Positions 15,629-40,267 of a DNA stretch of 64,000 nt are shown in pieces (positions within the stretch are counted from its first letter, which is position 1; each line of letters begins with the position of its first letter). Origin of the DNA: Chloroflexota bacterium (GTDB lineage: Bacteria; Chloroflexota; UBA11872; VXOZ01); the NCBI GenBank assembly GCA_958295775.1, contig CATQHC010000009.1:434001-498000 (forward strand), given 5' to 3'. The notes under the pieces are model-generated. The model was given only the letters and a program-made list of their open reading frames with translations, did no database searches and was not told where the DNA came from. The position numbers and the translations under genes were made by a program.

Positions 15629-15830
15629 ACACTCCTAACGGGGTTGCCGCACAGGTATACAGGTTGCCGGTGTGGAGTAAGTTTGAGGAGGTATTTGGGT
15701 AGAGACCCAGTACCGATCACAGCAAGTTACGCTTTCATCTTGATTGCCCGGGAAGTCACGCCTGCAATAACGATTTGACTACGCTAGTGCTGAAGAGCAG
15801 TAGTCAGAGAAACCCCAATCGGACCAATTG

Positions 15831-16280
15831 ATGGCGAACGTCAACCTTACGCAAGCCGAAGCCGACGAACTAATCGCTCTCGAGAAGTACAGGGTCGACG
15901 CGCAGGAGTGGCTCTATCCACACATGGGTGGGAAGGTCATCATCCCGCTAGTTTCACAGGATGGTCGTGAGCAGTTCCGGTTGGATCTATATCGGAGCAA
16001 GATCGCCCTCTCCCGCAGAACCTATCAGAATCGCGCCCGGGGCGTCGTGGTTTTGGTCAGACTGGATGCAAGCGGTCCGCCACACCGTAACCCTGATGAT
16101 GAAGAAGTGCCCGCACCACACCTACACATTTACCGGGAAGGCTATGGCGATAGATGGGCAATCCCGGTGCCGTCAGTGCGCTTCTCAAACTTAATCGACA
16201 CTTGGCAAACGCTTCAGGATTTCATGGAGTACTGCAGTATAACGGAGCCACCCAATATCAGAAAAGAGTTGTTTCCATGA
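15831..16280 (+). CDS. DUF6978-like protein, first gene of a putative toxin-antitoxin/defence cassette
   Basis: This 149-residue soluble protein begins [14 protein letters not shown] and has the compact signature [13 protein letters not shown] followed by [15 protein letters not shown] recognise this pattern as the uncharacterised DUF6978 family; the assignment is from memory and not searched. The His-rich [11 protein letters not shown] block and the preceding GPPHxNPD could form a catalytic or metal site. The gene ends in ATGA overlap with the DUF1828 gene, so the two are translationally coupled. G+C is lower than in neighbouring genes. The ATG at 15831 lacks a clear Shine-Dalgarno; a TTG sits one codon earlier. 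Confidence 0.7.
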
Positions 16281-17047
16281 CTAGCGAAGTGCAGGCACTC
16301 TTAGACCAATACTGGGAGTGGCTGAAGGAAAAGACGACATTGCGCCAAATCAATGAATGGGTCGAGATAACCACGCCGCACTTGGACCGTCATAATGACT
16401 ATCTCCAGATATTTGCCATGAAAGACAACAGCGGATTCATCCTAAGCGATGACGGGTACGTATTGGATGACCTGGAGATGTCTGGCTGCGGTGTCGATAC
16501 TTCCAGGCCGTCCAAGCGACGCGCGTTGCTCGACATGACTCTTAACGGGTTCGGCGTAAAACGAAACGGCAATAGACTAGAAGTCAATACGTCTCCGGAA
16601 AACTTCCCAATTCGCAAGCACAACCTCGTGCAGGCAATGCTTGCTGTTAACGATCTGTTTTACTTAGCGACTCCTGTGCCACGACTATTCCGTGAAGAGG
16701 TCGTAACTTGGCTTGATCATGCCGACGTTAGATACACGCCTACCGTTAAGTTTTCGGGGAGAAGCGGCTATGATCACGTGTTTGACTTTGTGATTCCCAA
16801 GTCCAGATCGCAGCCGGAACGAGTTGTAAAGGCAATCAATCAGCCGAACCGGCAGACTGTTCAGTCACTGGTGTTCGCCTGGGGCGACACCAAAGAGAAT
16901 CGCACACCCGACTCACGCGCTTACGCGCTACTGAACGATGCGGAACGGCAAGTAGCGGAAAACGCGATGGCGGCCTTGCGGGAGTACAACGTGCACGGAA
17001 TCTCATGGTCCAATCGTGAACTCGCGCTTCCTGAACTTGCAGCCTGA
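16277..17047 (+). CDS. DUF1828/DUF1829 domain protein
   Basis: This 256-residue protein fits the two-domain DUF1828 (N-terminal, about residues 25-115) plus DUF1829 (C-terminal, about 150-245) arrangement known from phage and plasmid-borne genes of unknown function. The N-terminal domain contains [18 protein letters not shown] and [18 protein letters not shown]. The central [17 protein letters not shown] leads into [18 protein letters not shown]. The start at ATG 16277 overlaps the stop of the preceding DUF6978-like gene (ATGA), which is stronger evidence than the longer frame from 16154. This coupling suggests that the two products work together, perhaps as toxin and antitoxin. G+C is locally lower, consistent with acquisition. 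Confidence 0.75.
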
Positions 17048-17054
17048 GGCGGTA

Positions 17055-17297
17055 TTGTTCAAAGAACATGAGCAAATCGTACTCACTGCCAGAGTCTGCG
17101 GCGATGAAGGGGAGGAATTGCACCCAGGGGACATCGGCACAATCATGCATGTCTATGCCGAAGAAGAAGCCTTTGTGGTCGAATCCATGGCCGTCGGGGG
17201 CGAAACCGTAGCCATTGCTACGGTATTACCGTCGCAGGCGCGTCCGGTGACCAGCGCGGACCCTACGCTTGCCCGCATTCTGAATACTGCCGTGTGA
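17055..17297 (+). CDS. DUF4926-like small protein
   Basis: This protein of about 80 residues resembles DUF4926. It has a short beta-barrel-like unit, FKEHEQIVLTARV then HPGDIGTIMHVY, followed by AFVVESM and a tail containing VLPSQARPV. DUF4926 genes are often found next to toxin-like genes and may act as immunity or antitoxin partners; that is a family association, not a proven role. The TTG at 17055 follows GAGGCGG closely and lies 7 bases after the DUF1828 stop. A GTG at 17016 would instead overlap the previous gene by 32 bases. It is the third gene of the cassette. Confidence 0.65.
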   Translation: MFKEHEQIVLTARVCGDEGEELHPGDIGTIMHVYAEEEAFVVESMAVGGETVAIATVLPSQARPVTSADPTLARILNTAV

Positions 17298-37804: not shown

Positions 37805-38647
37805 TCAGTTCGCCGAATCCCCACTTTGTAAGCTTGGTTGACTCATGCGGCTTCTTTGAATCTCTCGTGTGTCGATCTTTGCTAGTTCCTTGAAATGGAC
37901 GTCAATCTCATCTCTCATACTGCAACCAACGACTTCAAAGCAGTCAAGCAAGTCCGTGTAAACATCCTGACCCCCTGCTAGGAAATTCCAGAATTCATCT
38001 CCTACCATCAATTGGCTTTGATTCTCAATCTCAAGCATTCCTTTCATCGTCCACCGGTTGTATCGCTTAGGCTCATAGGGATTGTAAGGGATTGCAATTC
38101 TTGTCCTTACATCCGCATCTGGATCTTGATATAGAATTGCTGCTGCCCACTCCAGCATGTCCTGTTTGTGCTTCTCAAAGCTAGCAATATTAGGTTTGGC
38201 GGTTTTTAGATCAATCAAGAATCTCGTTTTTTCTTTGGATAGGTAGATGTCAACATTGCGTAGCTTCTTCCTTGCCGCCCGCCCAACACGGCAAGCTGCG
38301 CGGATCTGCTTAATCTCACAAGAGTGATTTGGGTTGCGACTTCCTTCACTAAGACCGTTCATGATCTCCGTGATGGCTTCTTGAGCACCAGAAGAGAATT
38401 CACCTTTAACTTCATACTGCGGCTCTACATAGTCAAATGAACCATCCGCGATCTCCTTCGCTACTTTCTCGAAAATCGCAGTTCCGAAGTTAGTGCTAAG
38501 CGAGTGGATAAATGAATAGAGTGCCATCCGATCTCGGCCAAGTAGGCGAGCATGAAATGGCATGTGCGAAGGTTCGGGATTGTAATTTTGCAGTTTTCTA
38601 CGCAGTGCCAACTCAATAGTATTCTCAATCCGCTTGCTGTTAAACAT
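37805..38647 (-). CDS. TdeIII-family type II restriction endonuclease
   Basis: This 280-residue protein matches the TdeIII restriction-endonuclease family by overall pattern. It has an N-terminal helix NTIELALRRKLQNYNPEPSHMPFHARLLGRDRMALYSFIHSLSTNFGTAIFE and the catalytic stretch RKKLRNVDIYLSKEKTRFLIDLKTAKPNIASFEKHKQDM, where Asp in VDIY and Asp-x-Lys in IDLKTAKPN form the PD-(D/E)xK site. TdeIII itself is reported, as I recall, to cut GGNCC; specificity here is inference. The gene begins 6 bases after the methyltransferase stop, with AAGG upstream of the ATG. The pair is AT-richer than its surroundings. Confidence 0.9.
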   Translation of the reverse strand: MFNSKRIENTIELALRRKLQNYNPEPSHMPFHARLLGRDRMALYSFIHSLSTNFGTAIFEKVAKEIADGSFDYVEPQYEVKGEFSSGAQEAITEIMNGLSEGSRNPNHSCEIKQIRAACRVGRAARKKLRNVDIYLSKEKTRFLIDLKTAKPNIASFEKHKQDMLEWAAAILYQDPDADVRTRIAIPYNPYEPKRYNRWTMKGMLEIENQSQLMVGDEFWNFLAGGQDVYTDLLDCFEVVGCSMRDEIDVHFKELAKIDTREIQRSRMSQPSLQSGDSAN

Positions 38648-38653
38648 ATTGCC

Positions 38654-40267
38654 TTATCTATTCTTCATGTGAAATATCGTCTCACCGTATGCGCCTTTGT
38701 CGCCCTCTGAGCGATTGAGTACCGGCCGTTTGTACTCTTTCTTGATTTTCAAATTGGAGAGTTCTGCAATTTGCGGGTACAATTCGAACTTGTCATTTGC
38801 TACAAGAAACACGTCAAAGTCCTCGATCATGTATTGTCGGCAATTCGTTAAGACTTTGGCGACCCCTTTGACATATGCTTCTCTAGCATGTCGTCCACGG
38901 CCTTGACTCAGCGGACCAATTTCCGATTGGTCGTTTCGAGTAAGGTCAAACAGCTCATAGGCATAGGCATGTTGCTCATGATAGTCAATCAAGCCCACGT
39001 AGGGAGGACTGGAGAATACCCCCCGAATCTTCTCTCGCTTCAACAGAGCAGAAAACTCAGTGTCTTCACTCTCGAGTTCTGCAACTATGTCTATTTTGCG
39101 AGAGTCTCCCGTCAAGCAAAGTTGTCTTGTGCTAGTTCGAAGATCATTGAATTGCGCCAATCTCTTAATGGTATCGTCAGCGTAGCGACGCCACCAACCC
39201 AATATCGAAAAAAGTGGCTTGCAAATCTTGTTGTGCTTTCCACAATAATACGTCTCTGTAACCGGTCGGATCAGTGTTGCAAGATCTGAGTGTGTAGTTG
39301 CTCTAGACGAACGGACCGTACGGCTAAGGATTAGACGAAGTACATCCCGGAGCAGCGGGTCAGAATATCCGTCTATATAGCTCCTGGCACTCTCAATCTC
39401 ACTTTGAACTGTTGGTAGGAACCACTTGTGAAGAAACTCATTGCGGGTGGGGTCGATATTGTTTCGGACTCCACACTTGTCCAGCAATTCATAGTATTTT
39501 GGCAGGAATTCAGCAGCATTTTCAGCTCCGTATCGGTCTTCTTCAATCTCTCCACTTCGCACTTGCTTACGAAATTGTGGCGCGGGGAAGAACTCCCCAT
39601 TGAAGACTCTCAATTCCTCGAGCAACTCTCCCTCGAATCTACGTGCGTCTTTCCCTTCTATGTTGGACGCGATACAATTGCTCACAACCATCGTCGCTGT
39701 AAGTAGATCACTTAGTCCTACCCTACATAACTTAAGGTTGCTGATCATTGAATTGAATTGGGAAACATCAATGCCTATAGCATGCATTCCCAGTTCACTT
39801 GCCTGAACCAGTGTTGTGCCACTGCCACAGAACGGGTCAAGAATTATGTCTCCTGGTTCAAAGCACGCCTCGTCTTTGAATTCGTCGGTGTGAGAATCTA
39901 GAAAGTACTCCACTAACTGTGGGATGAACTTCCCTTTGTATGGGTGCAATCGATGCACATGCTTGGTGGTTTCTGACTCCTTGAATTGGTCAAAGGAGAG
40001 ATGCCAGTTCAAGTCTTCGCCGAGTTTGCTCCTAAAGGAGCGCTCTTTCCACCGTGCATTTGACTGAAAATAGCTCAACAGATCGGAGACGTTGACCATC
40101 TGCATACCATTTCTGTCAACTGCCGCTATGCGACCGTACTTTATTAGATAGGAAATGTTCGACGATGAGACTCTACGACCTGTGTGCCTCGTCGCCCAAT
40201 CGCTGGCTTGAGCGACTGTCATCAATTCAGCTTGATCCGGCAGCAACTCGTAATTGTGCTCTAGCAT
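38654..40267 (-). CDS. Type II DNA methyltransferase of the TdeIII-type system
   Basis: This 537-residue methyltransferase has an N-terminal winged-helix or excisionase-like segment (about residues 15-70, MTVAQASDWATRHTGRRVSSSNISYLIKYGRIAAVD). An HPYKGKFIPQLVEYFL region follows, then AdoMet motif I IILDPFCGSGTTLVQASELG (about residue 140), a long central region likely including target recognition, and catalytic motif IV SSPPYVGLIDYHEQ near residue 420. SPPY fits amino-methylation, N4-cytosine or N6-adenine. It precedes the endonuclease, so protection is made first. AGAGGT precedes the ATG at 40267. The 40268-40506 gap shows no controller gene. Confidence 0.9.
   Translation of the reverse strand: MLEHNYELLPDQAELMTVAQASDWATRHTGRRVSSSNISYLIKYGRIAAVDRNGMQMVNVSDLLSYFQSNARWKERSFRSKLGEDLNWHLSFDQFKESETTKHVHRLHPYKGKFIPQLVEYFLDSHTDEFKDEACFEPGDIILDPFCGSGTTLVQASELGMHAIGIDVSQFNSMISNLKLCRVGLSDLLTATMVVSNCIASNIEGKDARRFEGELLEELRVFNGEFFPAPQFRKQVRSGEIEEDRYGAENAAEFLPKYYELLDKCGVRNNIDPTRNEFLHKWFLPTVQSEIESARSYIDGYSDPLLRDVLRLILSRTVRSSRATTHSDLATLIRPVTETYYCGKHNKICKPLFSILGWWRRYADDTIKRLAQFNDLRTSTRQLCLTGDSRKIDIVAELESEDTEFSALLKREKIRGVFSSPPYVGLIDYHEQHAYAYELFDLTRNDQSEIGPLSQGRGRHAREAYVKGVAKVLTNCRQYMIEDFDVFLVANDKFELYPQIAELSNLKIKKEYKRPVLNRSEGDKGAYGETIFHMKNR

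Follow-up and report, generated by a model that had tools for sequence, protein, structure and literature searches.

A gene for a DUF6978 protein (gene A) and a gene for a DUF1828-DUF1829 protein (gene B) form a conserved two-gene unit in the DNA analysed here, a stretch of 64,000 nucleotides from a Chloroflexota contig (hereafter the window). The A-B pair is widespread and already catalogued as a candidate for defence, and many of its relatives lie inside type I restriction-modification operons. We propose that it is an anti-phage module of toxin-antitoxin or abortive-infection type, with A as toxin and B as its controller, a reading that we consider to have about an even chance of being correct. 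To the catalogue entry, the present analysis adds a concrete mechanistic hypothesis and a suggested bridge to the TumE toxins.

Gene layout and family assignment

The initial annotation had described three genes packed head to tail, the first two overlapping as ATGA and the third beginning 7 bases later with its own Shine-Dalgarno sequence, and the coordinates agree in all these points (Table 1). Gene C starts 7 bases past the stop codon of B, on which a GAGG Shine-Dalgarno-like stretch is situated. The family assignments were borne out by Pfam, with E-values of 2.7e-43 for DUF6978 in A, 6e-33 for DUF1829 and 1.3e-24 for DUF1828 in B, and 3.9e-9 for DUF4926 in C. The lower local G+C content was likewise recovered: 54% in A, 52% in B and 56% in C, against 64% and 60% in the flanking genes and 59% in the window.

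Table 1. Features of the A-B locus, in window coordinates
Feature	Position	Strand	Size, start or extent	Assignment or remark
Gene A, DUF6978 protein (PDC-M24A)	15831..16280	+	149 aa, ATG start	putative toxin/effector
Gene B, DUF1828-DUF1829 protein (PDC-M24B)	16277..17047	+	256 aa, ATG start	putative antitoxin/sensor, predicted PD-(D/E)XK-like fold
ATGA start/stop overlap of A and B	16277..16280	+	4-base overlap	kept in 43/60 loci
Gene C, DUF4926 protein	17055..17297	+	80 aa, TTG start	resident neighbour outside the module
Leader, from conserved upstream gene to A	15629..15830	+		no alignment even with the sole A-B-bearing congener

Among the PADLOC models, A was matched by PDC-M24A (5.4e-57) and B by PDC-M24B (3.2e-99), as neighbours in A-B order, and none matched gene C. 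Both A and B also match PHROGs phage families of unknown function. Only DUF6978, DUF1828 and DUF1829 were found in the two proteins, with no HipA kinase, HTH or other known antitoxin domain. Gene A is present in a single copy in the genome of the window. A scan of the leader for sigma-70-like promoters found none, such a scan being uninformative for this phylum.

Pairing of A and B across genomes, viruses and plasmids

Protein B was used to scan 84,980 species genomes, and the resulting set of 60 loci, which is therefore B-seeded, spans many bacterial phyla and one archaeon. A was detectable directly upstream of B in 52 of the 60, and the identical 4-base overlap was found in 43. Searches seeded with A gave the same picture. 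Among 301 genomes of the phylum of the window, A was present at 8 sites with B directly downstream at 8/8, B accompanied A in 15/15 viral loci, and no A-seeded locus without B was found on the viral contigs or in the 301 genomes. The order is kept in distant relatives on virus contigs, in a Staphylococcus phage and on plasmids, down to approximately 25-30% identity. In Staphylococcus phage 37 the pair is placed between the repressor side and the integrase, and a B gene is placed likewise on an S. epidermidis plasmid. The co-occurrence, for which the initial annotation had suggested a check of gene neighbourhoods across genomes, is thus far beyond chance, and the conserved unit is A plus B. It should be added that apparent A-B fusion proteins in two loci (L029 and L033) were rejected, because they resemble the products of a deletion and a frameshift.

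Protein A: histidine motif, possible relation to TumE and decay of the pair

The conserved motif of A reads R77-L-D79...P-H85-x-N87-P88-D89...P-H97-x-H99-x-Y, its first part also being given as R77-x-D79. It includes the HLHIYREG... block, noted earlier as conserved-looking, whose H97-x-H99 histidines are invariant in 57 homologues. The further suggestion that this block is catalytic stays plausible as a putative role, given the two invariant histidines and the loss of the region from several decayed copies. The AlphaFold (AF2) model of A is a confident alpha+beta fold (pLDDT 93), which gave no convincing structure match in the PDB or BFVD; a PDB sequence search likewise returned no relative of A.

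The motifs of A align in register with those of the TumE toxins, which carry RYDNAPHHP...FPHHKH in the same order. The profile score of 24.8-26.3 exceeded those of 300 column shuffles (at most 19.3) and of 33 unrelated families (at most 19.5), with an HHalign probability of only 7-28%. The TumE Pfam model (PF20126) did not match A, which matched only DUF6978 at E up to 1. The comparison is suggestive of a relation between A and TumE, weak but above the null.

Directly before many other DUF1828 genes of the phylum lies a gene for a divergent protein, approximately 150 aa long, that shows the pattern H-x-[HN]...H-x-H. In six loci (L160, L163, L165, L166, L167 and L175), a DUF1828 gene outside PDC-M24 follows a small divergent protein of this kind. 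Most of these escape Pfam and PADLOC, and the family is thus larger than catalogued.

Decayed copies bear on which of the two proteins might be toxic. Locus L020 carries a copy of A from which residues 62-123 have been deleted, precisely the stretch that holds the motif; L029 and L047 retain a single end of A, and A is lost in L034 and L043, with B intact in all five. This loss of A with B kept, together with the finding that no A-seeded locus lacked B, agrees with A being the toxin and B the antitoxin. The asymmetry is biased, however, B having been the query that yielded the 60 loci, and one locus (L173) goes the other way, with B shortened and A intact.

Protein B: predicted fold and conserved residues

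The AlphaFold (AF2) model of B consists of two confident domains with uncertain relative placement (pLDDT 91, pTM 0.54). Most of the 20 best PDB matches returned by Foldseek for this model are PD-(D/E)XK enzymes; the best has an E-value of 3.3e-4 and a probability of 1.00, at a low TM of 0.38. Card1, VC1899, NucS, PspGI, Can2, MspJI and McrC are among the matches, some of them CRISPR ancillary nucleases. A PDB sequence search with B gave noise only. The predicted fold of B is PD-(D/E)XK-like.

It is unlikely, but deserves consideration, that the role of effector falls to B, as a PD-(D/E)XK relative that cuts nucleic acids, with A as its sensor, adaptor or inhibitor. The structure matches, led by Card1, VC1899, NucS, PspGI and Can2, would agree with such a role, as would the invariant D58 and D221 and the near-invariant D41, D170 and D204. 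However, the alignment of B holds no conserved copy of the canonical E-x-K: position 185 in the third strand is a mixture of Q, R and K, and position 206, which follows D204, has K in 30 of 58 sequences and R in 16. Catalysis by B is thus unproven despite the conserved acidic residues. Furthermore, the histidine cluster is found in A and absent from B, and it is A that is lost in several loci. For A as toxin and B as controller, the same matches to nucleases, including CRISPR ancillary ones, count in favour. A recognisable DNA-binding domain is usual in type II antitoxins, and the lack of one among the domains found in B counts against that assignment.

Type I restriction context of the relatives and surroundings of the window copy

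The context of the relatives was read by clustering of flanking genes, and representatives were confirmed with Pfam (N6_Mtase 1.9e-106, Methylase_S 1.3e-18, T1RH-like_C 1.2e-117 and HSDR_N 5.1e-47). In about half of the loci, the pair lies inside a type I restriction-modification operon on a single strand, in the order hsdM-hsdS-[A-B]-hsdR. HsdS/HsdM-like genes were found upstream in 25 of the 41 loci with enough sequence, HsdR-like genes downstream in 24/49, and both in 17/35. The same slot also holds RhuM, AAA_21 with DUF4276, and DUF4143 ATPases. In loci L024, L039 and L047, a pair of an AAA_21 ATPase and DUF4276 stands between B and hsdR as a second cargo of the same operon. Separately, one HsdR-like protein (L042:5363-9343) carries GIY-YIG and DUF559 nuclease-like domains as insertions.

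The window copy has no hsd genes beside it and no known immune operon around it. Proximity to a defence island, which the initial annotation had proposed to check, was not upheld: the strong restriction genes in the window are a type II pair approximately 21 kb off, the nearest restriction system to A-B, and the window as a defence island is unsupported near the locus. This pair (37805-40267) consists of a TdeIII-type endonuclease (2.6e-76) and an N6/N4 DNA methylase, in a patch of low G+C (45-47%).

The position in hsd operons could also mean that A-B serves the type I enzyme as an accessory regulator, for instance as a modification or anti-restriction control factor, and is no separate killing system. 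We regard this as quite unlikely, since free-standing copies occur in the window genome, in the congener G213, in phage 37 and on plasmids. A comparison of the window with G213 gave a dN/dS of 0.07 for each of A and B and of 0.21 for C, values that are rough because synonymous changes are near saturation. The free-standing pair of the window is under strong purifying selection and maintained for protein function. An ordinary housekeeping or mobile-element pair devoid of an immune role would agree with the patchy distribution, which fits any mobile gene; nevertheless, the recurrent embedding in restriction operons, the repressor-integrase position in the phage and the status of PADLOC candidate make this very unlikely.

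DUF4926 and the A-B site in the genus

The flanking genes are common to all 6 genomes of the genus. A-B is present at the site in 2 of them and missing in 4, and its presence is therefore polymorphic within the genus. In three of the four genomes devoid of A-B (G077, G301 and G149), DUF4926 directly follows the upstream gene, which indicates that A-B was either inserted just upstream of a resident DUF4926 or lost in the other lineages. DUF4926 stands beside A-B in the window and in one congener (locus L003, whose 86% match is that of the genome G213), and in 0/59 other genome loci.

The initial annotation had read all three genes as one toxin-antitoxin or defence cassette. This arrangement is refuted as a conserved unit and has hardly any chance of being right, its head-to-tail packing in the window and one congener being outweighed by the three congeners in which DUF4926 occupies this site and A-B is missing, by its absence beside A-B outside the genus and by its weaker constraint (dN/dS 0.21).

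It should also be added that the three DUF4926 genes at sites lacking A-B (L119, L120 and L122, in G077, G301 and G149, respectively) have no in-frame ATG, GTG or TTG at the expected start and show an apparent ATT or ATC start immediately behind a TGA stop. Where A-B is present, in two genomes, DUF4926 starts with TTG or ATG and the Shine-Dalgarno sequence lies on the stop codon of B. Given this difference, an insertion would also have replaced the start region of DUF4926.

Proposed mode of action

The reading of A-B as a toxin-antitoxin-like anti-phage module draws on the PADLOC models for both proteins, the pairing with a constant overlap in 43/60 loci, the embedding in hsd operons, the position in phage 37, the polymorphism in the genus and the low dN/dS of both genes. 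It also draws on the TumE profile score above controls, TumE being a translation blocker encoded in a two-gene operon, on the five loci with A lost or cut through the motif, and on DUF1829 in the non-kinase subunit of HipAD. The low HHalign probability, the TumE Pfam model that A fails to reach, the B-seeded origin of the decay asymmetry together with L173, and the window copy with no type I operon nearby weigh against it.

Under this reading, A would be a small enzyme with a histidine motif, probably an RNase resembling TumE, that brings translation to a halt. B, tightly coupled to A in translation, would keep it inactive and would sense infection, in many relatives possibly via the neighbouring type I restriction enzyme. 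A phage that disturbs B or the partner of B would release A, and the infected cell would be halted. The window copy would represent a free-standing, selectively maintained version of the module. The identity of the two proteins, their pairing, the embedding of the relatives, the selection, the polymorphism and the exclusion of DUF4926 are results of the present analysis, whereas the choice of A as toxin, RNA as its target and the trigger are inferred.

A broader conjecture, which we consider doubtful, is that DUF6978, TumE and the divergent histidine-motif proteins upstream of DUF1828 constitute one large RNA-targeting toxin superfamily, controlled by dedicated DUF1828-DUF1829 proteins whose PD-(D/E)XK fold would be catalytically dead. 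Many of these would be wired into type I operons, so that disabled restriction frees the toxin.

Comparison with known systems

The PDC candidates of PADLOC-DB 2.0.0 originate in a screen by guilt-by-embedding (Payne et al. 2024, a preprint cited in PMC12988326), and most members of the class await experimental validation. The window pair agrees with PDC-M24 in having M24A and M24B side by side in A-B order; it differs in not being embedded in another immune operon, embedding being the discovery context of the class and not its definition. Neither the catalogue entry nor the literature searched gives a mechanism, and PDC-M24 is named in none of the papers covered by that search. The initial annotation had presented the locus as an undescribed toxin-antitoxin or defence system. 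A candidate system stands for A and B, given the PDC-M24 match, the hsd embedding of the relatives and the position in phage 37, but 'undescribed' is wrong because the pair is already catalogued as a candidate. The points that may be new are the link to TumE, the fold of B and the wider superfamily of such pairs.

TumE-TumA is a two-gene superfamily (DUF6516; PMC10584680) in which TumE is a translation blocker that its operon partner neutralises. A-B shares with it the small two-gene operon, and the RxD...PH...HxH motif lines up in register, a resemblance that is suggestive, the alpha+beta fold of A being one that lacks a PDB match. A is, however, longer, with an N-P-D segment, and below the detection of the Pfam TumE model. 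Its partner is a DUF1828-DUF1829 protein in place of a RelB-like one, and the putative toxin gene comes first in A-B. In HipAD (DS-6), a HipA kinase is accompanied by a DUF3037-DUF1829 protein, and the system is validated as anti-phage and proposed to be toxin-antitoxin-like (PMC13092281). Both are two-gene systems with DUF1829 in a non-kinase subunit, whereas A-B has no HipA kinase and has DUF1828 instead of DUF3037.

The PrrC anticodon nuclease is embedded in the EcoprrI type Ic operon and acts when a phage defeats restriction (PMC3874165, PMC2610378). The relatives of A-B inside hsd operons are similarly situated and might form a second line upon failure of restriction, a likeness of operon position; A-B differs in consisting of two small proteins without an ATPase, and in that the window copy is without hsd genes. 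A-B is thus placed where PrrC-like second-line effectors sit and, should the proposed reading be true, it would provide a function for two uncharacterised families and an RNA-targeting backup to type I restriction.
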